A stretch of DNA of 64,000 nt, taken from Pseudomonas furukawaii. GTDB taxonomy: Bacteria; Pseudomonadota; Gammaproteobacteria; Pseudomonadales; Pseudomonadaceae. The stretch lies in the NCBI RefSeq assembly GCF_002355475.1, contig NZ_AP014862.1, forward strand, positions 1,984,001-2,048,000, in the 5' to 3' direction. Made by a program: the position numbers and the translations under genes. This document shows positions 29,153 through 45,725 of the stretch, piece by piece; the first letter of the stretch is position 1; each line of letters begins with the position of its first letter. Below the pieces are notes generated by a model, which was given only the letters and a program-made list of their open reading frames with translations, searched no databases and was not told the origin of the DNA.

Positions 29153-32100
29153 CTAGTTCCCTTCATCCACCACCTCGTCCTCTTCCTTGCTGCTCACCAT
29201 GCTGTGATGGACGAAGGCCTGGGCGATCACGGTGCGCAACTGCTCGTCGTCCCAGGGCTTGGTGAGGAACTTGTAGATGGCGCCCTGGTTGATGGCATCG
29301 GTGACTGATTTCAGGTCGGTGTAGCCGGAGAGCACGATGCGCACGGTGTCCGGGTAGAGGTCCTTGACCCGGCTGAGGAACTCGGTGCCGTTCATCTCCG
29401 GCATGCGCTGGTCGGACAGGATCACCTGGATATCGTGGCGAGCCAGGAGGCCGAAGGCGTCCTGGGCGCGGGTGGCGGTCAGGATCTGGTAGCCGTCGCG
29501 GCGCAGCACGCGGGTCAGGGCGCGAAGGATGTTCTCTTCATCGTCCAGCAGCAGCAGGGTCTGGCCGCCCGGGGTGCCCGAGCGCGACTCCAGGTAGGCG
29601 GCCGGGCTCTTGTGGTGCTCATGGAAGAAGCGCTCCAGCTGGTCGAAGGGCATGGGCCGGGCGAAGTAGTAGCCCTGGAACTCGTCGCAATGGCTCTTCT
29701 TCAGGAAGGCGAACTGGGATTCGGTCTCGACGCCCTCTGCGATCACTCGCAGGCGCAGGTGGTGGGCCATGGAAATGATGCCCTGGGTGATGGCCGCGTC
29801 ATGGTGGTCGCTGATGACCTCCTGGACGAAGGCGCGGTCGATCTTGACCTTGTCGATGGGCAGGCGCTTCAGGTAGTTGAGGCTGGAAAAGCCGGTGCCG
29901 AAGTCGTCGATGGACAGCCGCACGCCAAGCGCCTTGAGCGCCTGCAGGGTGGCGATGGCACGCTCGGCGTTGTCCAGGAGGACGGTCTCGGTGATCTCCA
30001 GCTCCAGCAGTTCGGCGGGCAGGCGGCTTTCCTCCAGCACCCGGCGCACGGTATCGACGAAGATGTTGCGCTGGAAATGCACCGCCGAGATGTTCACCGC
30101 CACCACGGTCCCGGTGACGCCCTGGTCCATGAGCCGGCGGCAGTCGCGGCAGGCGGTGGCCAGGACCCATTCGCTCAGCGGGATGATCTGTCCGGTGTCT
30201 TCGGCCACCGGGACGAACTGCGCCGGCGAGATGAAACCCAGCAGCGGGTGCTGCCATCGCAACAGTGCTTCGTAGCCGGTGACCCGCCCGTTGCGGCCGT
30301 CGATCTGGGGTTGGTAGTAGAGCATGAAGGCACTGGACTCTATGGCTTTCTGCAGTTCATTGCGCAGGGTCACCCGTTCGCTGACCTTCTGCTCCAGGTC
30401 CGTGGTGTACCACTGGTAGCAATTGCGCCCCTGCTGCTTGGCCTTGTACATCGCGAGGTCCGCCTGCTGGATCAGTTGCATGGGCTGCTGCATGCCTTTC
30501 TCGCTCAGGGCGATGCCGAGGCTGGCGGTGATGTGCAGTTCGCTGCCGGCGATGGGGTAGGGGCGGGCGATGCAGTCGATGACCCGCTCGGCCACCTGCA
30601 GCACGTCCTCCTCCCGGGCCAGGTCCGGCAGGATCAGGATGAACTCGTCGCCCCCCAGGCGCGCCACGGTGTCGCCGGGACGCACCTGCTGGCTGAGGCG
30701 CCGGGCCACCTCCACCAGGATCTGGTCGCCGATGCCGTGGCCCATGGAATCGTTGATCGGCTTGAAACCATCCAGGTCGATGAACATCACCGCCAGTTTG
30801 CGCCGGTAGCGCTGGCTGATCTGGCAGCCCTGGCGCAGGCGGTCCTCCATGAGCGAGCGGTTGGGGAGGCCGGTGAGGACATCGTGGCTGGCGTTGTAGG
30901 CCAGTTCGGACTCCACGCGCTTCTGTTCGGAAATATCGTTCTGCACGCCGATGAAATGGGTGATGCGGCCATGCTCGTCCGGCACGGGAGCGATGTAGAG
31001 GTCGTTCCAGAAGGGCGTGCCGTCCTTGCGGAAGTTGCGCAGCACCACATGGACCTCGCGCTGTTCCTCCAGGGCTCGACGGATCTCGGCGATGCCCGTC
31101 TGTTCGCGGTCCGGTCCCTGGAGGAAGCGGCAATTGCGCCCCAGGGTCTCGCCCGCGCTGTAGCCGGTGATGCGTTCGAACGCCGGGTTGACGTAGATGA
31201 TGGGCAGGTCGGGGGCGCTGGCGTCGCAGATCAGCGCGCCGTTGTAGCTGGCCTCGATGCTGCGCTGGAGGATGCGCAACTGCTCCTCCGACTGCCGGGT
31301 CCGGCTGATGTCGCGGAAGGCGATGACCCAGCCCCCCAGCGCCCTGGCGTGCAGCAGTGGGGCGCAGTCGTAGGCGATATGGCGCTCACCCCCCAGCCCC
31401 ATTTCGCCGTGGCGTGTCGCGCTGGCCCCGGCGTCGTACAGATCCAGGGGCAGCAGTTCCGCCAGGGGGCGACCGAGCAGGGCGTCCACCGGCTTGCCCA
31501 GGAGGGTGGCGGCGGCCGGATTGACGAAGGTCAGTCGACCCTGGCGATCCACCGCCAACAGCCCCTCGCCAACGCTGTCGGTGATGGCGGAGGTGAAGTC
31601 CAGCTGTTCCTGCAGGCGCTGCTCGCCGGAAAGCACCTGTTGCACCAGGCGGATGTTCTCCAGGGCGGCCACCACCATCTGGGCGAACTGCTGGGCGATG
31701 GCCAGGTCGTCGGTGTCGAAGTCGCCCTCCAGTTTGTCGGACAGCTGGATCAGGCCCAACTGGCGTCCTTCGTGGTCCACCAGGGGCACGGCCAGCCAGC
31801 TTTGCAGGGGCGCGTTGCGGATTTCCAGTTCCGCGCGAGTCAGTAGCCGAGGCAGGCAGGAATCGTCGGGCTCGTTCCCCAGGGCCAGCCCCTCCGGCGT
31901 GAGCAGCGGCGCATTCCAGGGCTGATGACGGGCGGACAAGGAGAGCGCCTGCAGGTCCGGATGGTCCGCCAGGGTCAGCAGCGACTGATGGGCGCCCACC
32001 AGCAAGCGCAGTCGCTCGCACATGAAGTCCAGCAGGGCCTGGGTGTCGAGAATGCCGCCGATGTGCAGTGCCGTCTCGCTGAGGCCCCGCAGCAGCTGCG

Positions 32101-34894
32101 CCTTGCGCTCGGACTGGGCGAGGGTGTCCTGCAGGGCGCGGGTCATCCGGTTGCGCTCGCTGATGTTCTTGGCGATGCCGAAAACCCCGACGATCCGTCC
32201 TTCCACCACGATGGGCAGGTTGGTGATGTCCAGCTCCAACAGCGCGCCATCACGGTTGCGGCAGGTGGCCTCGTAGCGCTGGGCCTTTCCGTCCAGGGCG
32301 GCTTTCAGGTGCTTCTCGACCTGTTCCACATCCGCGTCCACCACCAGGCAGGAGAAGTACTGGCCGAGCAGTTCATCGGAGCCGTAGCCGATCAGCGTGC
32401 CACCCGCCTGGTTCAGGCTGACGAAGCGTCCTTCGCGGTCGAAGGAGAACACCGGATCGGGGTTGAAGGTGAACAGCGAGCGATAGCGTTGCTCGCTTTC
32501 CAGCAGGCGCAGGCGGTCGTGCTGGCGCTCGATGGCGATGGCCGCCAGCTGCCCGGCGGTGCTGATGAGCTGGAGGGCATCGTCGTCCGGCACGCAGGGG
32601 AAGCGCAGGTGCATGGCGAAGGTGCCGAGCACGTCGCCGTGGTGGGAGATCAGCGGTATGGCCCAGCAGGCACGCAAGCCGTGGCGCAAGGCCAGGTCGC
32701 GGTGGCTGTGCCAGAGCGGATCCTCGCTGATGTCCTCGCTCACCACCATCTGCCGGCGGAACACCGCGGTACCACAGGCGTCCGCCAGGGGGCCGATGGC
32801 CTGTCCGTCCAGGGCCTGGCGGTAGGCGCCCGGCAGGCTGGGGGCGGCGCCCGGCTGCAGGCGCTTGCCCTCGGCGTCCACCAGGTGCACGGAGCAGAGG
32901 GCGGCGGGTTCCAGGGTTTCGCTCATGAGGCAGATGGCTTCGAGGATGTCGCCCAGGGACTGGTCGGTGGAGATCATGCTGAGGATGTCGCGCTGGTCCT
33001 CGGCGTAGGCCTCGTGGCGAACCAGGCTGGTGATGTCGTGGGCCACGGCGAACAGGGTGCGCTCGCTGTCCGACCAGCCCGCCGACCAGAGCAGGTGCAC
33101 CACGCTGCCGTCCTTGCGCTGGCAGCGGTTGCGCACCGCTTCCCAGGACTCGCCCCGGATGATGGCCTGCAGGTCGCCCCGGGTGCGCTCGCGGTCTTCG
33201 GTGAGGACCACGTCGGTGTAGGGGCGGCCGATCAGTTCCTCCGGGCGGTAGCCCAGGACGCTCTGGCAGGAGGGGCTCACCTGGGTGAAACGCTCGTGTT
33301 CGTCGATGGAGCAGAGCACGTCCATGGAGTGTTCCATGATCCGCTGGTTCTGCCGCTGCAGGCGCGCCTGGTGCTGAAGGCTCAGCTCAAGCTCCCGGTT
33401 GCTGTGCCGCAGCCGCCTGCTGCGGTCCAGGGCCAGGCGGGAGAACCGCTGGTTGACCATTAGCAGGAAGGTGAAACCGAGTCCGAAGAGCATGAACAGC
33501 GGCGGCAGGTAGACCGCAGCGGCATCGCGCCTTGGGAGCAATTGGAAGAGCCGCAGGCTCCAGCGTCCCTCCGGTCCCAGGTTGGTCATGTTCTCGCCCA
33601 GGGGCTGTAGCTCGCGCCGGTCCGCCGGTCTTTGCGACAGGTACACACGACGGTCACCTTCGGACACTTCCAGCACGAAGCCCTCCAGGTCGCGACCCAA
33701 TTGCTGGTCGAGAGTCGCCCTGATGTCCAGCACTGCCACCAGCAGCGCCGTAGGCTGCCCGGCCAGCGTCACCGGGGTGGCGACCAGGAGGCTGGCGTTC
33801 GAGCCTCGGAAGTTCTGGGCTGAGCTCATCCGCGAATGGGTTCCGCCCTCTACCTGGCGTAGCCAGTCGCGCTGCTGCGGCAAGGCGAGGAAGTGCATCA
33901 GCCAGGTCGCTGCCTGCGGCGACCGCGCCTGCTGTCGTTGCGGCGCGAGGTCGGTGTCCAGTACGGCAATCAGGTCGATATTGGGAAAGTCACGCAGGTA
34001 GCTGCTCGCCTCCTGCCGCCAGAGCCCTTCCGTCGGCATTTCGCCCAGAGCCCGCCAGCGCTCGCCCATGCGCTGCATCAGTTGCAACCGGGTGGTGACG
34101 GTGTGCTCGATGGACGACTGGGCCCTCATCAGCAGCTGGTGGCCGTGGGTGTTGAGGCTGGAGATTTCGTTCTGGCTCAAGAGGAACCAGCCGATGCAGG
34201 TGGCCAGGGCCCCCAGCAGGCCGGTGAGGGTGGTGCGACGATCGAGCGGTTGCCGGTGTTCCTCCCGCAGGGCGCCCAGCATCAACACGGCGGTGCCCAG
34301 CAGGGCGATGAACAGGTTGGCGACATGCCCGGCCTCGGGGCGCAGGGAGAATCGTGGCAGGTCAGGGCTCGCGCCCAGCGAGGCGAACTCGGACAGCAGC
34401 GCCAGCAACAGCAGCACGGCGCCGCAGCACTGGCTGGGCCAGCGTCCACCGCGTCTCGCCACCGACAGCAGGGTGGCCAGGCCGAACAGGCTGGCGACGA
34501 TGGCCAGCTCGCTGCGGATGTGCCAGAGGCCACCGACCAGGGAGTGCCCCGGATCGTTGCCTCCGGTCAGCAGGTTGTGGCCGAAGCTGTAGGCGGACAG
34601 GACGACCAGCGTCAGGCTGGCCAGCAGGGCGGTACGTGCCCGGCCTCTGGCTGCGGCCAGCAGGGCGCTGCCGGCAAGCAGGGTGACCAGCGCGGTCTCC
34701 GGAAGCAGCACCAGTTCGTGACGGCCCGGATTGCCTTGGAGCACAAATGCCAGCAGCCCGATGGCGCCCAGGATCATGAGGGCGAACGCCAGGCAATGAA
34801 GGAAGGCCTGGTAGCTGAGGTCGCGATTCTGTCGCGCCATGCTGTCGTGTCCTTCCTCGTGGGGGAGGGCGCCCTGGTCTCGGATATCAGTCAT
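29153..34894 (-). CDS. Giant membrane PAS-GAF-LOV-GGDEF-EAL-REC cyclic di-GMP protein
   Basis: 1913 residues. Several N-terminal membrane helices (30-240) precede a periplasmic sensor region (about 245-455) and another helix (461-480). Then follow PAS (515-625), GAF (640-790), PAS (800-915), GAF (935-1085), PAS (1095-1200), LOV (1210-1325), GGDEF, EAL and REC (1778-1895). The LOV domain has GRNCRFLQG (1252-1260, reactive Cys1255) and the flavin contacts Arg1272/1273, Asn1287, Asn1297 and Gln1318. GGDEF (1414-1418) is intact, with an RPGD I-site at 1405. EAL (1542-1544), Asn1601, DDFGTG (1663-1668) and Glu1720 suggest active hydrolysis. Phospho-acceptor Asp is 1828. The start overlaps the previous gene by 8 nt. 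ATG 34840 has the better SD (GAGGAAGGA). Confidence 0.93.
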   Translation of the reverse strand: MTDIRDQGALPHEEGHDSMARQNRDLSYQAFLHCLAFALMILGAIGLLAFVLQGNPGRHELVLLPETALVTLLAGSALLAAARGRARTALLASLTLVVLSAYSFGHNLLTGGNDPGHSLVGGLWHIRSELAIVASLFGLATLLSVARRGGRWPSQCCGAVLLLLALLSEFASLGASPDLPRFSLRPEAGHVANLFIALLGTAVLMLGALREEHRQPLDRRTTLTGLLGALATCIGWFLLSQNEISSLNTHGHQLLMRAQSSIEHTVTTRLQLMQRMGERWRALGEMPTEGLWRQEASSYLRDFPNIDLIAVLDTDLAPQRQQARSPQAATWLMHFLALPQQRDWLRQVEGGTHSRMSSAQNFRGSNASLLVATPVTLAGQPTALLVAVLDIRATLDQQLGRDLEGFVLEVSEGDRRVYLSQRPADRRELQPLGENMTNLGPEGRWSLRLFQLLPRRDAAAVYLPPLFMLFGLGFTFLLMVNQRFSRLALDRSRRLRHSNRELELSLQHQARLQRQNQRIMEHSMDVLCSIDEHERFTQVSPSCQSVLGYRPEELIGRPYTDVVLTEDRERTRGDLQAIIRGESWEAVRNRCQRKDGSVVHLLWSAGWSDSERTLFAVAHDITSLVRHEAYAEDQRDILSMISTDQSLGDILEAICLMSETLEPAALCSVHLVDAEGKRLQPGAAPSLPGAYRQALDGQAIGPLADACGTAVFRRQMVVSEDISEDPLWHSHRDLALRHGLRACWAIPLISHHGDVLGTFAMHLRFPCVPDDDALQLISTAGQLAAIAIERQHDRLRLLESEQRYRSLFTFNPDPVFSFDREGRFVSLNQAGGTLIGYGSDELLGQYFSCLVVDADVEQVEKHLKAALDGKAQRYEATCRNRDGALLELDITNLPIVVEGRIVGVFGIAKNISERNRMTRALQDTLAQSERKAQLLRGLSETALHIGGILDTQALLDFMCERLRLLVGAHQSLLTLADHPDLQALSLSARHQPWNAPLLTPEGLALGNEPDDSCLPRLLTRAELEIRNAPLQSWLAVPLVDHEGRQLGLIQLSDKLEGDFDTDDLAIAQQFAQMVVAALENIRLVQQVLSGEQRLQEQLDFTSAITDSVGEGLLAVDRQGRLTFVNPAAATLLGKPVDALLGRPLAELLPLDLYDAGASATRHGEMGLGGERHIAYDCAPLLHARALGGWVIAFRDISRTRQSEEQLRILQRSIEASYNGALICDASAPDLPIIYVNPAFERITGYSAGETLGRNCRFLQGPDREQTGIAEIRRALEEQREVHVVLRNFRKDGTPFWNDLYIAPVPDEHGRITHFIGVQNDISEQKRVESELAYNASHDVLTGLPNRSLMEDRLRQGCQISQRYRRKLAVMFIDLDGFKPINDSMGHGIGDQILVEVARRLSQQVRPGDTVARLGGDEFILILPDLAREEDVLQVAERVIDCIARPYPIAGSELHITASLGIALSEKGMQQPMQLIQQADLAMYKAKQQGRNCYQWYTTDLEQKVSERVTLRNELQKAIESSAFMLYYQPQIDGRNGRVTGYEALLRWQHPLLGFISPAQFVPVAEDTGQIIPLSEWVLATACRDCRRLMDQGVTGTVVAVNISAVHFQRNIFVDTVRRVLEESRLPAELLELEITETVLLDNAERAIATLQALKALGVRLSIDDFGTGFSSLNYLKRLPIDKVKIDRAFVQEVISDHHDAAITQGIISMAHHLRLRVIAEGVETESQFAFLKKSHCDEFQGYYFARPMPFDQLERFFHEHHKSPAAYLESRSGTPGGQTLLLLDDEENILRALTRVLRRDGYQILTATRAQDAFGLLARHDIQVILSDQRMPEMNGTEFLSRVKDLYPDTVRIVLSGYTDLKSVTDAINQGAIYKFLTKPWDDEQLRTVIAQAFVHHSMVSSKEEDEVVDEGN

Positions 34895-35423
34895 CCAGTT
34901 CGTCGCCCTCGAGCAGGACGGCGCCGTCCGGGTCGCGGCGTACCCGTGTCAGGCCGGGATGCTGGGCTTCAAGCCGGAGAAGCTCCTGACGCTGACGGTC
35001 CAGGGTGTGCTGCTGGCCGCGCAGTTGCTCCAGCAGGCGGCGATTCTCGGTACGCAGTCGGTAGAGATCGACGGCGGCTTGCAGGGCGCTCTCGACGTCG
35101 TAGTCGTCCCAGGGCTTGGAGAGGAAGCGGAAGACTTCGGCGCGGTTGATCGCCTTCATCAGGGTGGCGCGGTCGCCGTGGGCGCTGAGCAGCAGGCGCG
35201 CGGCTTCCGGTTGGCGCTGGCGGGCGAACTGCAGGTAGGTCAGTCCGTCCAGGCGCGGCATGTTGAGGTCGCAGAGGATAGCCGCGTACTGCTGTTGCGC
35301 CAGGGCCGCCAGCGCCGCTTCGGGATCGTCGAAAGGCTGCAGCTCCCAGCCCTGGGGGCGCAGCAGTCGTTGCAGCGCGGTGAGAACATGGGGTTCGTCG
35401 TCCACCAGTTGGATGGTGATCAT
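34887..35423 (-). CDS. Response regulator: REC domain with C-terminal coiled coil
   Basis: 178 residues. The REC domain (1-120) has the acidic pair in LVDDEP, phospho-acceptor Asp52 (ILCDLNMP), and the Lys of FLSKPWDD. A heptad-like helix (about 120-160, RTENRRLLEQLRGQQHTLDRQRQELLRLE) replaces an output domain and could mediate dimerisation or partner binding. Its ATG overlaps the stop of the HD-GYP gene by 1 nt, and its own stop lies inside the start of the giant gene, so translation is likely coupled. Confidence 0.88.
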   Translation of the reverse strand: MITIQLVDDEPHVLTALQRLLRPQGWELQPFDDPEAALAALAQQQYAAILCDLNMPRLDGLTYLQFARQRQPEAARLLLSAHGDRATLMKAINRAEVFRFLSKPWDDYDVESALQAAVDLYRLRTENRRLLEQLRGQQHTLDRQRQELLRLEAQHPGLTRVRRDPDGAVLLEGDELDD

Positions 35424-36766
35424 CAGCTGTTCTCCACCGCCGTGGCGGTTTCGTTGGCGGGTCTTCGGACATGCAGCGTGTAGCGGGCCCCTTCGCTGGC
35501 TTCGAAGGCGATCAGTTTGTCGATCACGGCGGCGCTGAGCTGTTTTCCGGCGTTGAGCAGCAGCATGCCGCTGTCCGCCAGGAGATTGCGGGCCAGGATC
35601 ATGCCGGGTTCGAGGCGGCGCGTATCCATCACGAGGACGTCGGGGTCGCTGCCCTGCAGGTCCGGCGCCTGGTGGGTACAGAAGTCGATGAAGTCGCGGC
35701 ACAGGACGGGATCGTAGAGACGGCCCGAGTAGCGGGCGAGGAACTGCAGGGCTTCCTCGCGGGACTGCGGTCGTTGCAGCACCAGCCCGCACTGCAACTC
35801 CACGAAGTCCACCGCCAGCTTGAGCAGTCGGGCGCCGAAAGGGATCGCCTCGCCGTGAAGGTGGTCGGGGAAGCCCGCGCCGTTCCAGTGCTCCTGGTGG
35901 TGGCGGATCAGCTGACTGGCATCGTGCAGCGGCTCCAGGGTCATCAGCAGGTTTTCTCCCTGGACCGGGTAACGGTTGTAACGCTCCCGCTCGTCCCGGT
36001 GCAGCAGGTCGCTGGGGCGACTGAGCAGGTGGTCGTCCCAGGTGAGCTTGCCCAGGTTGTACAGCGCGGCGGCCATCGCCAGGTCGCGGTTGTCGGCTTC
36101 GGAGAGCTGCCGCTGGGCGGCGTAGGCCCGGACCAGGGCGATGACCTGGGCATTGCTGCGTTTGTCGGTGGGCAGGCGCTGGTTGAGCAGGGAGGCGAAT
36201 ACCTCGGTGGTGGTCACGTAGCTGTGGTGCAATTCCTCGTAGGCGAGGTCGAGCATGTCGGCGGTCTGCTGAAGCTCGGCGGTGCGGTCGCGAACCCGTT
36301 GCTCCAGATGGGCGTTCAGCTCCTGCAGTCGGCGGTTCTGTTCCAGGGCGAGACGCTCCAGGCGCCGGTGCTCGCGCTCGGCGTGCTGGTGGGCCAGGGC
36401 CTGGCGCAGGGTGGCGCGCAGCTCATCGTCGTTCCAGGGCTTGGCGAGGTAGCGGTAGATCTGCCCTTGGTTGATGGCGCGTATGCAGGTGGTCAGATTG
36501 GCGTCACCGGTGAGCAGCAGGCGCCGGGTGTCGGGCCAGCGCCGCTGGACTTCGGAGAGCAGGCCTGGGCCGTCCAGGCCGGGCATGCGGGCATCGGTCA
36601 TCAGCAGGTCGACCGGTTCGCTGGTCATCCGCTCCAGCGCCTGGATGCCGCTGCTGGCGGTGAGCAGCCGGTAGGGTTCGCCTCTCAGGGCGCGGCCGAG
36701 GGCGGCGAGGATGTGTGGCTCGTCATCCACCAGCAGGACGCATGGCAGCTTGCCTTCATCGCTCAT
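35423..36766 (-). CDS. Response regulator with degenerate HD-GYP domain
   Basis: 447 residues: REC (1-120, phospho-acceptor Asp58 in MTDARMP, KPWNDDE), a coiled coil (125-175), then an RpfG-like HD-GYP domain (about 180-440). The order of motifs is right, but the metal-binding HD of LHDIGK is Tyr236-Asn237 (ALYNLGKL), and the next motif has YP for HP (266). HH at 289-290 and GAGFP remain. It is therefore probably not a working cyclic di-GMP phosphodiesterase, and more likely a binding or scaffold module. It overlaps the kinase gene by 4 nt. Confidence 0.9.
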   Translation of the reverse strand: MSDEGKLPCVLLVDDEPHILAALGRALRGEPYRLLTASSGIQALERMTSEPVDLLMTDARMPGLDGPGLLSEVQRRWPDTRRLLLTGDANLTTCIRAINQGQIYRYLAKPWNDDELRATLRQALAHQHAEREHRRLERLALEQNRRLQELNAHLEQRVRDRTAELQQTADMLDLAYEELHHSYVTTTEVFASLLNQRLPTDKRSNAQVIALVRAYAAQRQLSEADNRDLAMAAALYNLGKLTWDDHLLSRPSDLLHRDERERYNRYPVQGENLLMTLEPLHDASQLIRHHQEHWNGAGFPDHLHGEAIPFGARLLKLAVDFVELQCGLVLQRPQSREEALQFLARYSGRLYDPVLCRDFIDFCTHQAPDLQGSDPDVLVMDTRRLEPGMILARNLLADSGMLLLNAGKQLSAAVIDKLIAFEASEGARYTLHVRRPANETATAVENS

Positions 36767-38037
36767 GCCGTTGGCTCCCCGCAGCCGGGCTGGCGCAGGG
36801 GCAGCCAGACGCGGAAGCGGGTGCCTTGCCCCGGCCGGCTGCTGACTTCGATGCGTCCGCCGTGTTTCTGCACGATGTTGTAGGACAGGGCCAGTCCAAG
36901 CCCCGTGCCTCGTCCAACGGGCTTGGTCGTGAAAAAGGGTTCGTAGATGCGGTGGAGGATGGAGGGATCGATGCCCTTGCCGTTGTCTTCCACCTCGATC
37001 CAGGCCCAGCCGTCCTGGTGGCCGCTGCGCAGGGTGATGCGACCGAAGGTCTCGATGGCGTGGGCGGCGTTGATCAGCAGGTTCATCGCGACCTGGTTGA
37101 TCTGCGAGGGGATGCATTCGACTTGCGGCAGATCGCCATATTCGCGGATCACCTCGGCCTTGTACTTGAGTTCGTTGTTCACCAGGTTGAGGGTGCTGTC
37201 GAGGCCAGGGTGCAGGTCGGCCAGGTGGAACTCCTCTTCCTCGATGTGGGAAAAGTCCTTCAGCGCCGAAATGATCTTCTTCACCCGCTCTATGCCGTCC
37301 CCGGACTCGTGGATCAGGGCCTCCACGTCATTGCGGATGTAGTCGTACTCGAGGCTGCGCTTGAGCTGCTGGAGTTCTTCCAGGCTGCCGACGCCATCCA
37401 CCGCATCGACCAGGCGGAGCAGGTCGTTGACGTAGCCCGAGAGGGTCTTGAGGTTGGAGAACACGTAGCCGATGGGGTTGTTGATCTCATGGGCGACCCC
37501 GGCCGCCAACTGGCCGATGGCGGCGAGCTTTTCAGACTGCAGGAGCTGGGCATTGGCTTTCTCCAGCTTGCGGATGAGTTGCTCCTGCTCCTGCTGCTTG
37601 CTGCCCAGGGCGTTCAGTGCGGCGGCCAACTGGTCGTTGGAGCGGGCGAACTCGGTGGTGTCGTAGAGCAGCAGCCCGAAGCAGCGTTGCCCATCACTCT
37701 CGAAGGGGAAGAGCAGGGTGCTCTGCAGTCGCAACGGGTTCACCTGCCCCTGCGGGCCGTAGGGCAATTGGATCAGGTAGGGGTCTTCGCGCCAGTGGGT
37801 GTAGGCGTGCAGTCCCTGGTCACGGGCCTTGTCCACCATCGCCGCCAGCCTCGGCGTATCGGCCTCCGGGAAGACGGTCACCAGGGGCTGGCCGATGGCC
37901 GAGGCGAGGTCCTTGCCGCTGCGTTGGGTGATGAAGGTGTTCCAGTGGAGGATGTGCAGATCCCGGTCGAGGAGGATGACACCCACCTCGATCTGTTGGA
38001 TCAGGGCACTCGCAAGATCGATAGGGCTGCTATCCAT
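36763..38037 (-). CDS. Cytoplasmic PAS sensor histidine kinase
   Basis: 424 residues with no membrane helix. A PAS domain (about 10-130) and a coiled coil (131-170) precede HisKA with phospho-acceptor His183 in GVAHEINNPIGY. A HATPase domain follows with NLLINAAHAIE (N box), DNGKGID (G1) and GRGTGLGLAL (G2). It has no receiver of its own. It is first of the four overlapping genes, three of which carry REC domains, so it is the obvious phosphate donor. The start at 38037 is chosen because upstream sequence is not PAS-like. Confidence 0.92.
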   Translation of the reverse strand: MDSSPIDLASALIQQIEVGVILLDRDLHILHWNTFITQRSGKDLASAIGQPLVTVFPEADTPRLAAMVDKARDQGLHAYTHWREDPYLIQLPYGPQGQVNPLRLQSTLLFPFESDGQRCFGLLLYDTTEFARSNDQLAAALNALGSKQQEQEQLIRKLEKANAQLLQSEKLAAIGQLAAGVAHEINNPIGYVFSNLKTLSGYVNDLLRLVDAVDGVGSLEELQQLKRSLEYDYIRNDVEALIHESGDGIERVKKIISALKDFSHIEEEEFHLADLHPGLDSTLNLVNNELKYKAEVIREYGDLPQVECIPSQINQVAMNLLINAAHAIETFGRITLRSGHQDGWAWIEVEDNGKGIDPSILHRIYEPFFTTKPVGRGTGLGLALSYNIVQKHGGRIEVSSRPGQGTRFRVWLPLRQPGCGEPTA

Positions 38038-38205
38038 GACATCGCCCGCATTCTCAAGATGAAGCTTGGGTTCGGAGGTTGAAATCTGCCGATTCTCCGA
38101 CTTTGTTGTAGGAAGTGTATGACAGATTCCAGGCGTCCGAATTCTGACGAAAGTAAAGCTGAAAGGCCAGGATGTTGCCTGGTCGCAGGAGGCGAAGGGT
38201 AGATC

Positions 38206-38901
38206 ATGGGATTGGATACGAGGTCCGAAACGCAGGTGCGTTATGAGTTCCGCTTTCCCGATGGTCGCCTCTGGGTCCATGGCGTGGACCTTGCGCCGGT
38301 CCCTCCGGAGCCGGGGCCCGAGTGGGCACGCCTGGGGTTCCAGCAATGTGGCAACTGTCCGCTGAAGGTCGCGGAGATCCGGGATTGTCCGTTCGCCACG
38401 GCCCTGGCCCGACCGATGGCGGTATTGGCGCGATCACCGTCCTATGAGGAGGTGGCGGTGACCGTGTCCTGGCGGGGGCGGGAGGTCCGTCAGCACACCA
38501 CCCTGCAAAGGGCGCTCGGGTCCCTGCTGGGCCTGCTGGGAGCCACCAGTGGATGCCCCCATACGCGGATGCTGCGGGCGATGGCCTGGTTTCATCAGCC
38601 CTTCAGCTCGTCGTCGGAGACCTTCTACCGGGTCGTCGGTACCTACCTGCTGGGCCAGCATCTGCGGCAGGAGCGGGGGCTGGAGCCCGACTGGAACCTG
38701 GACGGACTGCGGGAGCTCTACCGGAACCTTCGCCAGGTGAACCTGGGCATGGCCGGGCGGCTGCGGGCGGCGGCGGAAGAGGACTCCAGCCTGAACGGCC
38801 TGATCCTGCTGGACCTGTTGGCCGCGGATACCCTGTATTCGCTGGACAGCTACGAGGGGGAGCTGGATGGCTTCTTCGCGGAATTCTTCGAGGAGGAGTG
38901 A
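38206..38901 (+). CDS. Uncharacterised cysteine-containing protein divergent from the kinase operon
   Basis: 231 residues. The N-terminal half has CGNCPL (CxxC) with a further Cys in RDCPFA nine residues later, and TSGCPHTRML follows later. The C-terminal half is helical (MAWFHQPFSSSSETFYRVVGTYLLGQ, DWNLDGLRELYRNLRQVNLGMAGRL). The Cys spacing suggests a metal or Fe-S site. I recall related stand-alone or kinase-linked proteins but cannot name a function. It starts 168 nt from the kinase gene on the opposite strand, so it may share its promoter region and signal. Confidence 0.75.
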   Translation: MGLDTRSETQVRYEFRFPDGRLWVHGVDLAPVPPEPGPEWARLGFQQCGNCPLKVAEIRDCPFATALARPMAVLARSPSYEEVAVTVSWRGREVRQHTTLQRALGSLLGLLGATSGCPHTRMLRAMAWFHQPFSSSSETFYRVVGTYLLGQHLRQERGLEPDWNLDGLRELYRNLRQVNLGMAGRLRAAAEEDSSLNGLILLDLLAADTLYSLDSYEGELDGFFAEFFEEE

Positions 38902-38948: not shown

Positions 38949-39497
38949 TCAGCGTTCGTCGAGGGCGAAGGCCGTGAGCGCGAAGGTCGGAATGCCGGCA
39001 TCGGCCAGGCGCTCGGAGCCACCCAGCTCCGGCAGGTCGATGATGGCGGCGGCCTCGAACACGCTGGCGCCCATGCGGCGAACCAGGCGGGCTGCCGCCA
39101 GCAGGGTGCCGCCGGTGGCGATCAGGTCATCGAAGATCAGCACCTTGTCGCCTTCGCAGAGGCTGTCGCTGTGGGCTTCGAGGAAGGCTTCGCCGTACTC
39201 GGTCTGATAGGGCTCGGAGAGCACTTCCGCCGGAAGCTTGCCCTGCTTGCGGAACAGCACCAGGGGCTTGTTCAGCTCATAGGCGATGATGGAGCCGATC
39301 AGGAAACCCCGGGCATCCATGGCGCCGATATGGCTGAAGTCCGTTTCGACGTAGCGCTGGATGAAGCTGTCGGCCACCAGGCGCAGGGCGCGGGGCGACT
39401 GGAAGAGCGGGGTGATGTCGCGGAACACGACGCCGGGCTTGGGAAAGTCCGGTACCGGGCGGATCAGGGTCTTGATGGAGAAGTCGTCGAAGATCAT
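38949..39497 (-). CDS. apt: Adenine phosphoribosyltransferase
   Basis: 182 residues. It starts [32 protein letters not shown] and has the PRPP loop [14 protein letters not shown]. It salvages adenine to AMP with PRPP. It is next to anr, as I remember for P. aeruginosa. A GC-rich palindromic stretch (GGGCCC...GGGCCC near 38928-38940) lies between it and the convergent gene and may terminate both. Confidence 0.95.
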
Positions 39498-39551
39498 GTC
39501 GATGCCTGGTGGAGAGGGCGGGTTGAAACGGCTGCGCCCACCGCTGGCGGA

Positions 39552-40286
39552 TCAGCTTTCGATGCTGCCGCCGGCCATGGCGCAGAGTTCGATGGGGTCG
39601 AGGATGTGGACTTCCTTGCCTTCCGCCGCGATCAGCCCGGACTGCTGGAAGCGGGTGAAAACGCGGGATACGGTCTCCACGGCCAGGCCCAGGTAGTTGC
39701 CGATCTCATTGCGGGACATGGCCAGGCGGAACTGGTTGGCCGAGAAGCCCCGCGCACGGAAGCGGGCGGACAGGTTGACCAGGAAGGTGGCGATGCGTTC
39801 GTCGGCGGTCTTCTTGGAGAGCAGCAGCATCATTTGCTGGTCATCACGGATTTCCCGGCTCATGACCCTCATCAGCTGGCGGCGCAGCTGTGGCAGCTGG
39901 ACGGAGAGCTCGTCGAGCCGCTCGAAGGGAATCTCGCAGACGGAGGTGGTCTCCAGGGCCTGGGCAGAGACCGGGTAGAGTTCGGTGTCCATGCCGGACA
40001 GTCCCACCAGTTCGCTGGGCAGGTGGAAACCGGTGATCTGTTCCTCACCGGTGTCGGTCACGGTGAAGGTCTTCAGGGCGCCGGAGCGCACCGCGAACAC
40101 CGAGCCGAAGGCGTCGCCCTGGCGGAACAGGAGTTCGCCCTTCTTCAGGGGGCGTCCGCGCTTGACGATTTCGTCCAGGGCATCCATGTCCTCCATGTTC
40201 AGCGAAAGAGGCAGGCACAGGGCGGCCAGGCTGCAGTCCTTGCAGTGGGCCTGGGGTACGTTGCGCACCTTGATGATTTCGGACAT
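39552..40286 (-). CDS. anr: Anr, oxygen-sensing FNR/CRP-family global regulator
   Basis: 244 residues. Cys15, Cys18, Cys24 ([12 protein letters not shown]) and Cys117 are the four ligands for an oxygen-labile [4Fe-4S] cluster. A cyclic-nucleotide-type beta barrel and dimer helix follow, and the helix-turn-helix [20 protein letters not shown] (191-210) has the E-x2-SR recognition residues for TTGAT-N4-ATCAA. It activates genes at low oxygen. Matching boxes lie before hemN (42334) and the distal cco operon (54661). The start is fixed by AAGGAA. Confidence 0.96.
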
Positions 40287-40347
40287 GGGGCCATTCCTTG
40301 AGAGGCAATCACACAATGCGGGTAAGGTTAACGCAGGGTGGGAACGA

Positions 40348-40364
40348 CAGCCAGTGATTGGCTG
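40348..40364. promoter_or_regulatory. Inverted repeat between anr and the coiled-coil gene
   Basis: CAGCCA-GTGAT-TGGCTG, a perfect 6-bp inverted repeat in the 146-nt divergent gap. It does not match an Anr box. The binding protein is unknown. Confidence 0.35.
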
Positions 40365-40432
40365 GCGCGGATTCGTTCAAGTCCGGGGCGCTGTGGCCGA
40401 TAGCCGTACTGTCGAAGGACAGGAGAAGCCCC

Positions 40433-40882
40433 ATGTTACGCATCGACACTTCCAATCCCGCAGCACGGGTGGCCGAGTCGGTGCGACGACAGGTCGCATT
40501 CAGGGAAAACGGCCCTCGGGATCCCGAGGCCTTGCGCGAGGATATCCGGGTCAGTCTCACCGATCTGGGCAAGGCGTCCAAACCACGCAGCAACGACGAC
40601 ATCGACGAAAGCGATCTACCCGACGGCATCAAGGAGCTGCTCAAGATGATCCGTGAGCTGAAGGCTCAGATCGCCGAGCGCCAGGCCGAGCTGGAGGCTA
40701 TCGCCGCCGACCAGGGCCTGGACGAAGAGGCGCGCCTGCAGCGCCTGGACGAGGTTCGCGCCCAGCTCGAATCGCTGCGCAGTGCCCTGTCCAGTGCCAA
40801 CCTCAACCTGGCCAGGATGATGCGTGAGTCCAACCTGTCGGAGGAGCAGTCCATCGAGGTGGGACGCCTGCTGATGGCCTGA
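40433..40882 (+). CDS. Conserved coiled-coil protein of unknown function
   Basis: 149 residues, charged and mostly helical. The N-terminal 60 residues are polar, then a long heptad-like stretch (KELLKMIRELKAQIAERQAELEAI...RLDEVRAQLESLRSAL) predicts a coiled coil. There is no membrane helix or signal. ATG follows GGACAGGAGAAGCCCC. It is convergent with hemN, 7 nt apart, and divergent from anr. I recall a hypothetical gene at the same place in P. aeruginosa. Confidence 0.75.
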   Translation: MLRIDTSNPAARVAESVRRQVAFRENGPRDPEALREDIRVSLTDLGKASKPRSNDDIDESDLPDGIKELLKMIRELKAQIAERQAELEAIAADQGLDEEARLQRLDEVRAQLESLRSALSSANLNLARMMRESNLSEEQSIEVGRLLMA

Positions 40883-40889
40883 TCCCGGG

Positions 40890-42272
40890 TCAGATGACCC
40901 GGGAAAAGCGTTGCTGGTCCTGGCGATTGAGGTAGTGGTCGAACAGCATGCACAGCGAGCGCACCAGCAGACGGCCAGCGGGCAGCACGTCGATGCGGTT
41001 CTCGCGCAGGTCGATCAGCCTGTCGTGGTGCATCTGCTCCAGTTGCGGCCAGATCTCGCCGAAGTAGCCACGAAATTCAATGTTGAAGCGCCGTTCGATG
41101 GTGGCGAACTCCAGCTCGAATTCGCAGATCAGCTGCTGGATCACAGCCCGGCGAATGCGATCGTCCTCATCACAGACCAGGCCACGGGAGGTGGCCAGCA
41201 GCCCGTTCTCCAGCGCGTTCTGGTAGTCGTTCAGTTGCGCATTGTTCTGGCAGTAGAGATCGCCGATCTGGCTGATCGCCGAGACCCCCAGGCCGATCAG
41301 GTCGCAGTGGCCGTGGGTGGTATAGCCCTGGAAGTTGCGCTGCAGGCGGCCGTCCTCCTGGGCGATGGCCAGTTCGTCATCGGGCAGGGCGAAGTGGTCC
41401 ATGCCGATGTAGCGATAGCCGGCGGCGCGCAACTGCTCGATGCTGCGCTGGAGCATTTCCAGCTTCTGCGCGGCGCTGGGCAGGTCCTCGCTGCGGATGC
41501 GCCGTTGCGGCATGAAGCGCTCGGGCAGGTGGGCGTAGTTGAAGATGGACAACCGGTCGGGTTGCAGGGCGATCACTTCGTCCAGGGTCCGCGCGAAGCC
41601 GTCCGGATTCTGGCGGGGCAGACCGTAGATCAGGTCCAGGTTGAGCGAGCGGAATTGCAGGGTGCGCGCGGCCTCGACGATGGCGCGGGTCTCTTCCAGG
41701 CTCTGCAGGCGGTTCACCGCCCGCTGCACGGCGGGATCGAGGTCCTGCACGCCCAGGCTGACGCGGTTGAAGCCCAGCTCCCGCAGCAGTCCCATGGTGG
41801 ACCAGTCGGCCTCCCGGGGGTCGATCTCGATGCCGTAGTCGCCGGAGTCGTCGTCCAGCAGCCTGAAGTGACTGCGGAGGTGGCCCATCAACCGACGCAG
41901 TTCATCGTGGCTGAGGAAGGTCGGGGTGCCGCCCCCGAAATGCAGCTGTTCGACGCGCTGTTGCGGGTCGAGGTGGCAGGCGATCAGTTCGATCTCGCGC
42001 TCCAGGCGCTCGAGGTAGGGCAGGGCGCGCCCCCGGTCCTTGGTGATGACCTTGTTGCACGCGCAGTAGTAGCAAATGTTCGCGCAGAAGGGCACATGCA
42101 CGTAGAGGGACAGCGGGCGTCGTGCCTTGCGGCTGTCCCTCAGTGCATGGAGCAGGTCGAAGGAGCCCACCTTGTGACTGAACTGCACGGCGGTGGGATA
42201 GGAGGTGTAGCGCGGGCCTGGGGTGTCGTAGCGGCGGATGAGGCCGGCGTCCCAGCGGATATCGTCGAGCAT
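40890..42272 (-). CDS. hemN: Oxygen-independent coproporphyrinogen III dehydrogenase
   Basis: 460 residues. The radical-SAM cluster motif is Cys63-x3-Cys67-x2-Cys70 (PFCANICYYCACNK), with FGGGTPTFL and the EIDPRE segment of HemN. It makes protoporphyrinogen IX for haem without oxygen, supplying the cbb3 oxidases nearby at low oxygen. A consensus Anr box lies 62 nt upstream of the start codon. Confidence 0.95.
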   Translation of the reverse strand: MLDDIRWDAGLIRRYDTPGPRYTSYPTAVQFSHKVGSFDLLHALRDSRKARRPLSLYVHVPFCANICYYCACNKVITKDRGRALPYLERLEREIELIACHLDPQQRVEQLHFGGGTPTFLSHDELRRLMGHLRSHFRLLDDDSGDYGIEIDPREADWSTMGLLRELGFNRVSLGVQDLDPAVQRAVNRLQSLEETRAIVEAARTLQFRSLNLDLIYGLPRQNPDGFARTLDEVIALQPDRLSIFNYAHLPERFMPQRRIRSEDLPSAAQKLEMLQRSIEQLRAAGYRYIGMDHFALPDDELAIAQEDGRLQRNFQGYTTHGHCDLIGLGVSAISQIGDLYCQNNAQLNDYQNALENGLLATSRGLVCDEDDRIRRAVIQQLICEFELEFATIERRFNIEFRGYFGEIWPQLEQMHHDRLIDLRENRIDVLPAGRLLVRSLCMLFDHYLNRQDQQRFSRVI

Positions 42273-42333
42273 GCGGGCATCCCCGGTTAGGCTGTCTGTG
42301 GCGGCAGTCTAGGGGGCGTCCGTCGGGGCGGTC

Positions 42334-42347
42334 TTGACTTGCATCAA
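42334..42347. promoter_or_regulatory. Anr/FNR box upstream of hemN
   Basis: TTGAC-TTGC-ATCAA, 9 of 10 conserved positions of TTGAT-N4-ATCAA, between the TauE-like gene and hemN. Activation of hemN by Anr is established in Pseudomonas. Here it rests on the site match. Confidence 0.85.
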
Positions 42348-42352
42348 GCCGA

Positions 42353-43081
42353 TCAGTGGCTATGCCGAGGTGCGCTGGCACTCGCGTCCTGATGCCCGCC
42401 GTGTCCCATGAGCCAGGCCTGGTGCGGGCCAGGCAGGGTCCAGAGGCCGAACAGGATCACCAGCAGGCCCCCGGCGATGCGCACGCCGCGTCTCCGCAGC
42501 AGGGCGGTCAGGCGCTCGGCGGCCAGGCCGGTGGCCACCAGGATCGGCAGGGTGCCAAGGCCAAAGGCGAACATCAGCAGCGCGCTGTCGGTGGCCGAGC
42601 CCTGGCTGGCGGCCCAGAGCAGGGTGCTGTAGACCAGGCCGCAGGGCAGCCAGCCCCAGAGACCGCCCAGGAGCAGGGCGCGAGGCAGGCTGGAGACGGG
42701 CAGCAGGCGGCTGGCGACCGGCTGGATATGGCGCCAGAGCCCTCGCCCCAGGGCTTCGATCCGCGTCAGTCCGCTCCACCAGCCGGCCAGGTAAAGCCCC
42801 ATGCAGACCAGCAGTGTCGCCGCCAGGACGCGCAGCGCGGTGGCTGCGGGGCTGTTGGCGATGGCCCATCCGGCGAGGCCGATGAGAAGCCCAGCGGTGG
42901 TGTAGCTGAGGATGCGGCCCAGGTTATAGGCGAGCAGGAGGCGCAGGCGGCGGGCGCGCTGCTCTTTCGGGATCGCGAGGGTCAGGGCGCCCATCAGGCC
43001 GCCACACATGCCCAGGCAATGACCGCCACCCAGCAGGCCCAGGATCAGCGCGGAAAGCAGCAGTGGAAGGAGTTCAGCCAC
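42353..43081 (-). CDS. TauE/UreH-like membrane protein of the cco cluster
   Basis: 242 residues with about six helices. It starts with GTG inside the ccoS end (8-nt overlap). GGGHCLGMCGGLMGAL in the first helix has the His-Cys-Met-Cys pattern found in UreH/TauE-type proteins linked to copper and haem-copper oxidase genes. The C-terminus is His-rich (HGGHQ...RHSH). A role in copper delivery to the cbb3 oxidase is plausible from context but not proven. Confidence 0.8.
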   Translation of the reverse strand: MAELLPLLLSALILGLLGGGHCLGMCGGLMGALTLAIPKEQRARRLRLLLAYNLGRILSYTTAGLLIGLAGWAIANSPAATALRVLAATLLVCMGLYLAGWWSGLTRIEALGRGLWRHIQPVASRLLPVSSLPRALLLGGLWGWLPCGLVYSTLLWAASQGSATDSALLMFAFGLGTLPILVATGLAAERLTALLRRRGVRIAGGLLVILFGLWTLPGPHQAWLMGHGGHQDASASAPRHSH

Positions 43082-43295
43082 GGGGCTTGTCCTGGTCGTC
43101 CGGCGGCTGCTGCTCGTTGCGTTCGGCTTCGGCGATGCCGGCCTGGTGCTTGGGGTCTTCGTCGTCGAACAGGATGCTGTGGGCGGGCCCATCGAGGTCG
43201 TCGTACTGGCCGCTGTCCACGGCCCAGAAGAACAGCCAGATGGCGAATCCGACCAGGCCGATTGCGACGGGGATCAGGATATAGAGCGCGGGCAT
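43074..43295 (-). CDS. ccoS: CcoS, cbb3 oxidase maturation protein
   Basis: 73 residues: one N-terminal membrane helix (MPALYILIPVAIGLVGFAIWLFFWAV) followed by SGQYDDLDGPAHSILFDDE, the CcoS/FixS signature. It is required to place haem b and CuB in CcoN. The acidic tail is longer than usual. It lies between ccoI and the TauE-like gene. Confidence 0.93.
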   Translation of the reverse strand: MPALYILIPVAIGLVGFAIWLFFWAVDSGQYDDLDGPAHSILFDDEDPKHQAGIAEAERNEQQPPDDQDKPRG

Positions 43296-43319
43296 CGGGA
43301 TATCTCGTTTCCGGGGCGT

Positions 43320-45719
43320 TTAGCTTCTGGCCAGCCGCAAGGCGTTGATCACCACCAGCAGCGAGCTGACCGACATGCCGAACGCGGCCCAGAGGGGGGT
43401 GATCCAGCCGAGGGCGGCGAAGGGCAGAACCAAGCCATTGTACAGGGTCGCCCAGGCCAGGTTCTCGACGATGATCCGACGGGTCCGACGGGCCAGGGAG
43501 AACGCCTGCACCAGGCTGCCCAGCCGGTTGGAGAGGAGCACCGCGTCGGCGCTGGTCTTGGCGAGATCCGTGGCGCTGCCCATGGCGACGCTGATGTCGG
43601 CGCCGGCCAGCACCGGCACGTCGTTCACGCCGTCCCCCAGCATCAGGACCTTGTGGCCGCGCTGGTGCAGGTCGCGCAGCACGTCGAGCTTGGCGTCAGG
43701 CGTGAGGCCGCCTCGGGCATCCTCGATGCCGAGCTCCCGCGCGATGCCCGTCACCATGGGGGAACTGTCGCCGGACAGCAGCAGGGTCTTCCAGCCTCGC
43801 TCACGGCAGGCGTCGAGCAGGGCGGAGGCGTCTTCACGGAGGCGGTCGTCGAGAACGAACCAGGCCAGGGGGCCCTGCTCGTCGCCCAGCAGCAACCACT
43901 GGCCCTGGTCGCCGGGAATCGCGGGAGTCGGCTGCCCGGCGAGTTCGGCGACGAACCCGGGCTGGCCGATACGCAGGCGTTGGTCGCCGACACGGCCTTC
44001 GAGGCCGCGGCCAGGGATGCTGTCCACCTGCTCGGCGGCCTGGGGGGCGCGGCCGAAGGCACGAGCGATGGGGTGCTCGGAGCGGTTCTCGAGGGCGGCG
44101 GCCAGGCTCAGGCAGCGGTCCCGATCGAGGCGGCCCAGGGGGTGGATGGCGCTCAGGGTCAGGCGTCCCTCGGTGAGGGTGCCGGTCTTGTCGAAGATCA
44201 CCGTATCGATCTGGTTCAGGCCTTCGAGCACGTGGCCCCGGGTGAGCAGCAGGCCCAGCTTGTGCAGGCTGCCGGTGGCGGTGGTCAGCGCGGTCGGCGT
44301 GGCGAGGGCCAGGGCGCAAGGGCAGGTCGCCACGAGCAGGGATAGCACGACCCAGAAGGCCCGGTCGGGATCGATCTGCCACCAGAGGATGCCGACGAGG
44401 GAGGCGGCGGCGAGGACGATCAGCAGGAACCATTGGGCGACCTGGTCGGCCACTTCCGCCAGGCGAGGCTTGTCGGCCTGGGCGCGGTCCAGCAGGCGGA
44501 CGATGGCGGAAAGGCGGGTGTCGTCGCCCAGCGCCTGGACCTCGACGGTGAGGGGGCCTTCCACATTGAGGGTGCCGGCGGTGACGGCGTCACCTTCGGT
44601 GCGCGGATGGGGCAGGTACTCGCCGGTGAGCAGCGACTCATCGACGCTGGATTGGCCGGAGAGGATGCGACCGTCGGCGGGAAGCAGGGCGCCTGGCGGT
44701 ACCAGCACACGGTCACCGACCTTCAGTTCGCTGAGCAGGATCCGTTCGCTCTGGCCATCGCTGCCGAGCCGCAGGCAGGAGGCGGGCAGCAGGTTCACCA
44801 GCTGCGCCGTGGCGGCCGCTGTGCGCTCCCGGGCCCGGCGCTCCAGATAACGACCGGCGAGGAGGAACAGGGCGAACATGCCCACCGCGTCGAAGTAGAG
44901 TTCGCCGACGCCGGTGATGGTGGACCAGATGCCCGCGACGTAGGCACCGCCAATGGCGAGGGAGACCGAGACGTCCATGGTCAGGTGGCGGGTGCGCAGG
45001 TCCCGCAGGGCGCCGCGGAAGAACTGGCCGCAACAGTAGAAGACGATGGGGGTGGTGAGGAACAGGCTGACCCAGCGCAGGATGGTATCCAGCTCAGGCG
45101 ACAGGTCGATGTTGAACTCCGGCCAGGTGGCCATGGCCGCCATCATCACCTGCATCCACAGCAGGCCCGCCACGCCCAGCTGGCGCATGGCGCGGCGGTT
45201 CTCGTCGGCCAGGCGCTCGGCGGCCTCGTCGGCCTTGTAGGGATGGCCGGCGTAGCCGATCTTGCGCAGCTCCTTGAGCAACTGGCTGAGGGGCAGCTGG
45301 CTGTCGGACCAGCGCACCTGGAGGCGATGGTTGGACAGGTTGAGGCTGGCCTCGGCGACGCCGGGCAGGGTGCGCAGGTGCTTTTCGATCAGCCAGCCGC
45401 AGGCGGCGCAACTGATGCCCTCGATCAGGAGGCAGGTCTCGCTGAGCTCGCCCCGATGTTCGACGAAGGGCTGCTGCACCTCGGTGCGGTCATAGAGGGC
45501 CAGTTCGTCCGGCAGTTCGCGGGGAAGGGCGTCGGGGTTGGCGGCGGTATCGCTGCGGTGGCGGTAGTAGTTTTCCAGGCCGCCGGCGACGATGGCTTCG
45601 GCCACAGCCTGGCAGCCCGGGCAGCACATGGCCCGCGTCTCTCCCAGCACGCGGGCGTGGAAACGGCTGCCGGTGGGAACCGGCAGGCCGCAGTGATAGC
45701 AGGGCTGGGGCGCACTCAT
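43320..45719 (-). CDS. ccoI: CcoI/FixI, copper-exporting P1B-type ATPase
   Basis: 799 residues. An N-terminal Cys-rich segment (CYHCG at 7-11, CCPGC at 32-36) and a heavy-metal domain with CAAC (104-107) precede eight membrane helices, TGE (365-367), the CPC transport site (466-468) and DKTGT with phosphorylated Asp510. It moves copper across the inner membrane for cbb3 oxidase assembly rather than for general resistance. It follows ccoH by 6 nt. Confidence 0.95.
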   Translation of the reverse strand: MSAPQPCYHCGLPVPTGSRFHARVLGETRAMCCPGCQAVAEAIVAGGLENYYRHRSDTAANPDALPRELPDELALYDRTEVQQPFVEHRGELSETCLLIEGISCAACGWLIEKHLRTLPGVAEASLNLSNHRLQVRWSDSQLPLSQLLKELRKIGYAGHPYKADEAAERLADENRRAMRQLGVAGLLWMQVMMAAMATWPEFNIDLSPELDTILRWVSLFLTTPIVFYCCGQFFRGALRDLRTRHLTMDVSVSLAIGGAYVAGIWSTITGVGELYFDAVGMFALFLLAGRYLERRARERTAAATAQLVNLLPASCLRLGSDGQSERILLSELKVGDRVLVPPGALLPADGRILSGQSSVDESLLTGEYLPHPRTEGDAVTAGTLNVEGPLTVEVQALGDDTRLSAIVRLLDRAQADKPRLAEVADQVAQWFLLIVLAAASLVGILWWQIDPDRAFWVVLSLLVATCPCALALATPTALTTATGSLHKLGLLLTRGHVLEGLNQIDTVIFDKTGTLTEGRLTLSAIHPLGRLDRDRCLSLAAALENRSEHPIARAFGRAPQAAEQVDSIPGRGLEGRVGDQRLRIGQPGFVAELAGQPTPAIPGDQGQWLLLGDEQGPLAWFVLDDRLREDASALLDACRERGWKTLLLSGDSSPMVTGIARELGIEDARGGLTPDAKLDVLRDLHQRGHKVLMLGDGVNDVPVLAGADISVAMGSATDLAKTSADAVLLSNRLGSLVQAFSLARRTRRIIVENLAWATLYNGLVLPFAALGWITPLWAAFGMSVSSLLVVINALRLARS

Positions 45720-45725
45720 CGGCGG

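Follow-up and report, generated by a model that had tools for sequence, protein, structure and literature searches.

A conserved five-gene cassette of Pseudomonas furukawaii predicted to connect one histidine kinase and three receivers with cyclic di-GMP

NosP-NosK-NosR, HnoX-HnoK-HnoB-HnoD, VieSAB, and PA2571/PA2572/PA2573, together with the proteins RmcA and SL2, are the described systems closest to a gene cassette of Pseudomonas furukawaii. The cassette is located at positions 29153–38037 of a 64,000-nt window (NZ_AP014862.1, 1,984,001–2,048,000, forward strand), which is the whole stretch of DNA that was analysed. Its minus-strand genes encode a soluble histidine kinase (HK), a response regulator composed of a receiver (REC) and a pseudo-HD-GYP domain (REC-YN-GYP), a REC-coiled-coil (REC-CC) protein, and a giant membrane LOV-GGDEF-EAL-REC protein, and a DUF6901 gene is divergent from the kinase gene. 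HnoD of the Hno system was reportedly described by Plate and Marletta in 2012 as a REC-degenerate HD-GYP protein.

In the NosP-NosK-NosR system of Burkholderia pseudomallei (BPSS1646–1648), the kinase NosK phosphorylates the degenerate HD-GYP protein NosR (PMC12570481). The common feature is a soluble HEINN kinase beside a regulator with REC and degenerate HD-GYP domains, whereas the P. furukawaii cassette has no adjacent NosP/FIST gene and adds two receivers, the giant protein, and DUF6901. In the Hno system of Shewanella oneidensis, as summarised in PMC8846402, one kinase is combined with a receiver-phosphodiesterase and with HnoD, which inhibits the phosphodiesterase HnoB. By contrast, the enzyme of the cassette is a membrane LOV-GGDEF-EAL protein with its receiver at the C-terminus, a REC-CC protein is added, and the genome encodes no H-NOX. 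VieSAB of Vibrio cholerae is similar in having a single kinase, a response regulator with an EAL domain, and an auxiliary receiver protein, VieB, which inhibits the kinase VieS (PMC4352251). However, VieB has TPR repeats, VieA has a DNA-binding domain, and the Vie system lacks a pseudo-HD-GYP or LOV domain. In P. aeruginosa, PA2572 is a REC-YN-GYP protein with an adjacent kinase gene, and it has no detectable phosphodiesterase activity and yet affects phenotypes (PMC3411652). The reported partner of PA2572 is the chemoreceptor PA2573, whereas a REC-CC protein or a giant cyclase is unreported there. RmcA and SL2 are PAS/LOV-GGDEF-EAL proteins with light effects (PMC8846402), but the PASd domain of RmcA lacks the LOV cysteine, and a C-terminal receiver, or membership of a kinase cassette, was described there for neither protein.

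A preliminary description of the locus had held that it was not a nameable system. No named system matched the cassette, but the statement was too broad for its parts: the REC-YN-GYP protein belongs to the NosR family of NCBIfam (NF053512; 549 bits over residues 10–433, cut-off 400), and the kinase-regulator pair resembles NosK-NosR, HnoK-HnoB-HnoD, and PA2572. The cassette is real, strongly conserved, and not a named system.

Gene order and co-conservation

The REC-YN-GYP protein was searched for in 96 related genomes, 20-kb regions were retrieved and annotated, and a scan of named genomes was added. Loci occurring in both genome collections were counted once. Twenty-four distinct cassettes (23 of them complete) had the same gene order and a giant protein of ~1,900 residues, so that the arrangement is not due to chance. 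Co-conservation in other pseudomonads, which had been set beforehand as the test of the proposed unit, was thereby observed. Of 18 same-genus genomes, 13 carried the same-order cassette, and one genome held three cassettes, each with all five genes. The carriers include P. resinovorans DSM 21078, P. taiwanensis, P. boanensis, P. tumuqii, P. borbori, P. aestuarii, and P. taeanensis. When the distance matrices of the HK, YN-GYP, REC-CC, EAL-REC, and DUF6901 proteins from 28 cassettes were compared, the r values were 0.86–0.95 (permutation maximum 0.54), as expected of units moved whole.

The four minus-strand genes were present with the domains described previously (Pfam PAS/HisKA/HATPase, Response_reg with HD_5, Response_reg, and, in the giant protein, four PAS, two GAF, GGDEF, EAL, and Response_reg domains). 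The cassette has five genes instead of four, because the divergent DUF6901 gene (38206–38901, plus strand, 231 residues) also belongs to it. The HK gene (36763–38037, 424 residues) overlaps the REC-YN-GYP gene (35423–36766, 447 residues) by 4 nt, and the latter overlaps the REC-CC gene (34887–35423, 178 residues) by 1 nt. Both overlaps are kept in relatives, nearly all of which have junctions of −4 or −8 and −4 or −1, respectively. The reported 8-nt overlap of the REC-CC and giant genes depends on ATG 34894, from which the giant protein would have 1913 residues. This start is not common to the relatives, and the 8-nt coupling was rejected. Relatives with a comparable giant protein start at the residue corresponding to Met19 of the window protein (ATG 34840), 36–55 nt past the REC-CC stop. 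In the window, ATG 34840 lies 46 nt past this stop and is directly preceded by GAGGAAGGA. The junction is therefore probably a short gap, and the giant gene (29153–34840, minus strand, ~1895 residues from the conserved start) probably has its own ribosome-binding site. Neither a terminator-like nor a sigma-70-like site was found at the gene junctions, and the four minus-strand genes are likely to be carried on one predicted transcript. The same-order copies, the kept overlaps, and the correlated distances support well the earlier view of one co-inherited signalling unit.

A paralogous cassette of the same genome, overlooked in the preliminary description, is located at 2.415–2.434 Mb (G000:C1:2415607–2434292, where G000 is the window genome; loci L035 and L036). 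It encodes an HK, a YN-GYP protein, a REC-CC protein, an Arf/Ras-like GTPase, a second kinase, a REC-MshEN-T2SSE ATPase, a transmembrane (TM)/PAS/GAF kinase, and a LOV-GGDEF-EAL-REC protein, with DUF6901 upstream. The ATPase scored under the PilB and GspE cut-offs. The gene in the gap of this cassette was considered as H-NOX, which was rejected since it encodes the GTPase. The enlarged type occurs in Halomonadaceae and Marinobacter, and in more divergent form in other gammaproteobacterial families. Such a module with a GTPase and a PilB/GspE-like ATPase is apparently hitherto undescribed. In the YN-GYP tree, compact (type-1) and enlarged cassettes interleave. To explain the compact type, this tree needs some three changes, of which two or more are forced; a simple order of enlarged first and compact later was rejected, and interconversion was therefore repeated. 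Joining of the TM/PAS/GAF front end to a kinase or to the LOV-GGDEF-EAL-REC back end seems to have happened more than once.

Kinase, receivers, and catalytic domains

The HK is composed of a weak N-terminal PAS domain, a dimerization and histidine phosphotransfer domain with an HEINN motif, and a HATPase_c domain, and has no TM segment. The HEINN motif was kept in all close relatives. The best NCBIfam match was T2SS_HK (NF038348), whose score of 354 bits was under the curated cut-off of 450, which places the kinase outside this family. At G000:C1:1611245–1612892, a gene for a kinase with 44% identity to that of the cassette is followed by one for a two-receiver protein. One receiver of this protein is very closely related to the cassette receivers, and the protein is a possible cross-talk partner.

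When the REC-CC receiver was compared with its own genome, the top seven of 43 REC matches were itself and six other receivers of the cassette and its paralogue. For the receiver of the giant protein, cassette and paralogue receivers took ranks 1–4 and 6–8 of 54, and the rank-5 receiver adjoins the gene of the third-best kinase match. A tree of 94 receivers placed the YN, CC, EAL, and T2SSE receivers each as one side of a branch; each role is therefore old and stable. Such kinship would be expected of receivers that are all served by a single kinase clan, and is no proof of phosphotransfer.

In the REC-YN-GYP protein, the HD motif is replaced by YN, as in all Pseudomonadaceae members examined. 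In an alignment with PA4781 and other solved HD-GYP proteins, residues Asn205, Tyr236, Asn237, and Gln291 occupied metal-ligand positions, with Asn205 at the upstream His, Tyr236-Asn237 at the HD motif, and Gln291 at the second His of the HH motif. Residues His290 and Asp320 of the ligand set were retained, and all six residues were invariant in an 11-sequence family alignment. The HD and HH metal ligands of a phosphodiesterase are lost, and an active HD-GYP enzyme was rejected for this reason. The previous label of pseudo-HD-GYP was correct and can be sharpened to YN-GYP. Judged from the sequences, the YN-GYP domain is a maintained binding module, a conserved pseudoenzyme and not a product of decay. 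In fluorescens-group pseudomonads (L100–L149), a solitary YN-GYP gene is divergent from GGDEF/EAL genes, and a related kinase, with a core ~51–56% identical, is encoded a few genes away.

The AlphaFold2 model of the REC-CC protein (predicted local distance difference test (pLDDT) score of 87.6) showed a receiver, a helix (residues 107–154), and a short tail. The tail sequence, HPGLTRVxRDxDGAVLLE, is conserved, and the tail may be a docking peptide. The motif HPxLxxVxRDxDGAxxLE of the tail (34887–35060) was retained even in the distant relatives L069 and L060.

The giant protein has a TM region and an extracytoplasmic loop, followed by PAS-GAF-PAS-GAF-PAS-LOV-GGDEF-EAL-REC. Its N-terminal part contains about six TM helices, the loop, and a seventh TM helix from hydropathy, and a sequence-profile search of the PDB returned no solved relative of this membrane region. 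The LOV domain (30905–31294, minus strand) contains the motifs GRNCRFLQ, RNFRKDG, FWND, and FIGVQ. Its best phmmer matches in the PDB were LOV-type domains (top E 1.7e-41), and it has both the GxNCRFLQ cysteine and the flavin-contact motifs of a photoactive LOV domain. The NCR-type Cys was present in all LOV-bearing relatives checked. This domain is a putative blue-light or flavin-redox sensor. The GGDEF domain (30422–30892, minus strand) has an intact GGDEF motif and the I-site RPGD, and the EAL domain (29654–30364, minus strand) has the intact catalytic motifs EALLRW, EITE, DDFGTG, and EGVE. The nearest solved GGDEF-EAL structure was MorA (PDB code 4rnh). With catalytic residues intact in both domains, the enzyme is predicted to be bifunctional. 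The C-terminal receiver (29186–29569, minus strand) has an intact phosphoacceptor Asp. Near the enlarged module in distant families, REC proteins of ~250–285 residues, some with a weak PAS domain (L196:4783–5640, L199:8275–9108, and L200:14289–15035), have receivers 62–66% identical to that of the giant protein.

The tight link with DUF6901 is the most surprising part of the cassette. The protein is a member of this family (PF21842) with 181.7 bits against a gathering cut-off of 27. In 18 of 18 same-genus genomes, the number of DUF6901 copies was one plus the number of HK-YN-GYP cassettes: three copies with two cassettes in the window genome and in G011, four with three in G010, two with one cassette, and one with none. 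The further copies of the window genome are located at G000:C1:2433639–2434292 and 3745487–3746131. Cassette-linked and non-cassette copies differ at more than 40 type-specific positions, and an ABC-F-like and a UspA-like gene neighbour the non-cassette copy (two genomes, by inspection of sequence). In other families (L193, L199, L200, and L201), too, DUF6901 has a pseudo-HD-GYP, REC-CC, or REC-T2SSE gene nearby. Residues Cys48, Cys51, Cys61, Cys117, and His130 are invariant. The AlphaFold2 model was confident (pLDDT 86.6); comparison with the PDB gave nothing better than E 0.07, with template modelling scores of at most 0.25 among the matches listed, and a known fold was rejected. A literature search returned no paper naming DUF6901. 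DUF6901 may carry a cofactor and serve the kinase as its input partner. A more specific and tentative proposal is that it represents a new cysteine-rich cofactor or metal sensor (CxxC-C-C with a conserved His), recruited once per cassette to a kinase with a weak sensor, by which chemical, photoreceptor, and membrane inputs would converge on cyclic di-GMP (c-di-GMP) by way of the three receivers and the pseudoenzyme.

The DUF6901 and kinase genes are separated by 168 bp (38038–38205, no strand assigned), a candidate shared promoter. A block in this region (38101–38125, minus strand; CTGTCATACACTTCCTACAACAAAG) is conserved in 12 relatives. With three or fewer mismatches, it had one site in the whole genome, and a genome-wide regulator site was rejected on this ground. 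Beside the cassette, at 38949–46223, are a phosphoribosyltransferase (apt-like) gene, an anr-looking gene (FNR type, 39552–40316), and hemN-like and fix/cco-type genes; the names anr and fix/cco were assigned solely by inspection.

Proposed signalling scheme and alternatives

By sequence features and analogy with the described systems, the cassette is probably (probability about 0.6) a five-gene, co-inherited, branched two-component system in which one kinase would act on three receivers to set c-di-GMP. Gene content, order, conservation, residue status, and receiver kinship are the directly established part of this model. The kinase, probably a bifunctional kinase/phosphatase, would receive its signal by way of the PAS domain, or by way of its partner DUF6901 as the more speculative option, and would phosphorylate the three co-evolved receivers. 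The C-terminal receiver of the giant protein would directly set GGDEF-EAL activity. The catalytically dead YN-GYP protein would act by binding, most likely to the GGDEF-EAL enzyme, which it would hold in the way that HnoD holds HnoB. The role of the REC-CC protein would be that of VieB towards VieSA, an auxiliary receiver by which the kinase is tuned or the complex scaffolded. Further inputs to the giant protein would come from the membrane or extracytoplasmic side, from ligands of its PAS/GAF domains, and, through LOV, from blue light or flavin redox. Phosphorylation may in this way be merged with light, redox, or small-molecule input, and c-di-GMP would shift only if phosphorylation and the local inputs agree. 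In the enlarged form, pilus- or secretion-type motors are candidate targets of c-di-GMP. Phosphotransfer, protein contacts, photochemistry, and the direction of the c-di-GMP change are steps that we infer.

Several observations weigh against the branched system. Shared phylogeny accounts for part of the high distance correlation. L057 and L058 hold YN-GYP and REC-CC genes without a kinase or giant gene, YN-GYP stands alone in fluorescens-group strains, and some enlarged cassettes lack DUF6901. In P. aeruginosa, a two-hybrid interaction of PA2571 and PA2572 was not seen (PMC3411652), and a neighbouring kinase therefore need not be the partner.

A possible, though doubtful, reading is compatible with the branched system and differs in the target. 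The cassette would be the compact form of a larger gammaproteobacterial module aimed at a PilB/GspE-like motor, in which MshEN-type ATPases are the target of c-di-GMP formed or degraded by the giant protein, and motor and messenger are kept in step by the receivers. The Arf/Ras-like GTPase, second kinase, and REC-MshEN-T2SSE ATPase encoded alongside HK-pseudo-HD-GYP in the paralogous cassette and in other families are consistent with this, as is the interleaving of cassettes with and without the motor on the YN-GYP tree. However, a motor gene is missing from the window cassette, and for most type-1 genomes there was no REC-T2SSE protein among the matches listed.

It is unlikely that the genes are insulated neighbours, with the kinase mainly controlling YN-GYP in the manner of NosK-NosR and the giant protein acting as an independent sensor on a shared transcript, its receiver served by another kinase. 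The kinase/YN-GYP pair does occur without the giant gene in L056, L101, L104, L105, and L115, and the gap before the giant gene and its own likely ribosome-binding site fit such independence. Nevertheless, the receiver of the giant protein ranks genome-wide among the nearest relatives of the YN-GYP and REC-CC receivers, and it comes after YN-GYP and REC-CC in every type-1 copy. A nitric oxide (NO) pathway, with the kinase as a NosK/HnoK homologue reading NO via a heme partner encoded elsewhere, is quite improbable: the NosR-family membership and the soluble HEINN kinase, like NosK (PMC12570481), are in its favour, but the genome has no H-NOX (HNOB) match, its single FIST (NosP) gene lies outside the window and 1.1 Mb away (C1:3147463), so that sensing by a linked NosP or H-NOX was rejected, and the conserved neighbour is DUF6901.

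Implications for c-di-GMP signalling

The cassette is a naturally delimited unit for asking what degenerate HD-GYP proteins do. The need of a single kinase for several receivers, and the way in which one GGDEF-EAL enzyme combines light with phosphorylation, likewise become testable. A widespread and apparently undescribed module, with a pseudo-HD-GYP protein, a Ras-like GTPase, and a REC-MshEN-PilB/GspE-like ATPase, is tied to c-di-GMP signalling, and the GTPase and PilB/GspE-type ATPase of the enlarged relatives point to pilus or secretion control. DUF6901 gains a hypothesis for its function. If DUF6901 is the input partner of the kinase, the cassette would be a self-contained module through which chemical, photoreceptor, and membrane inputs lead to c-di-GMP.

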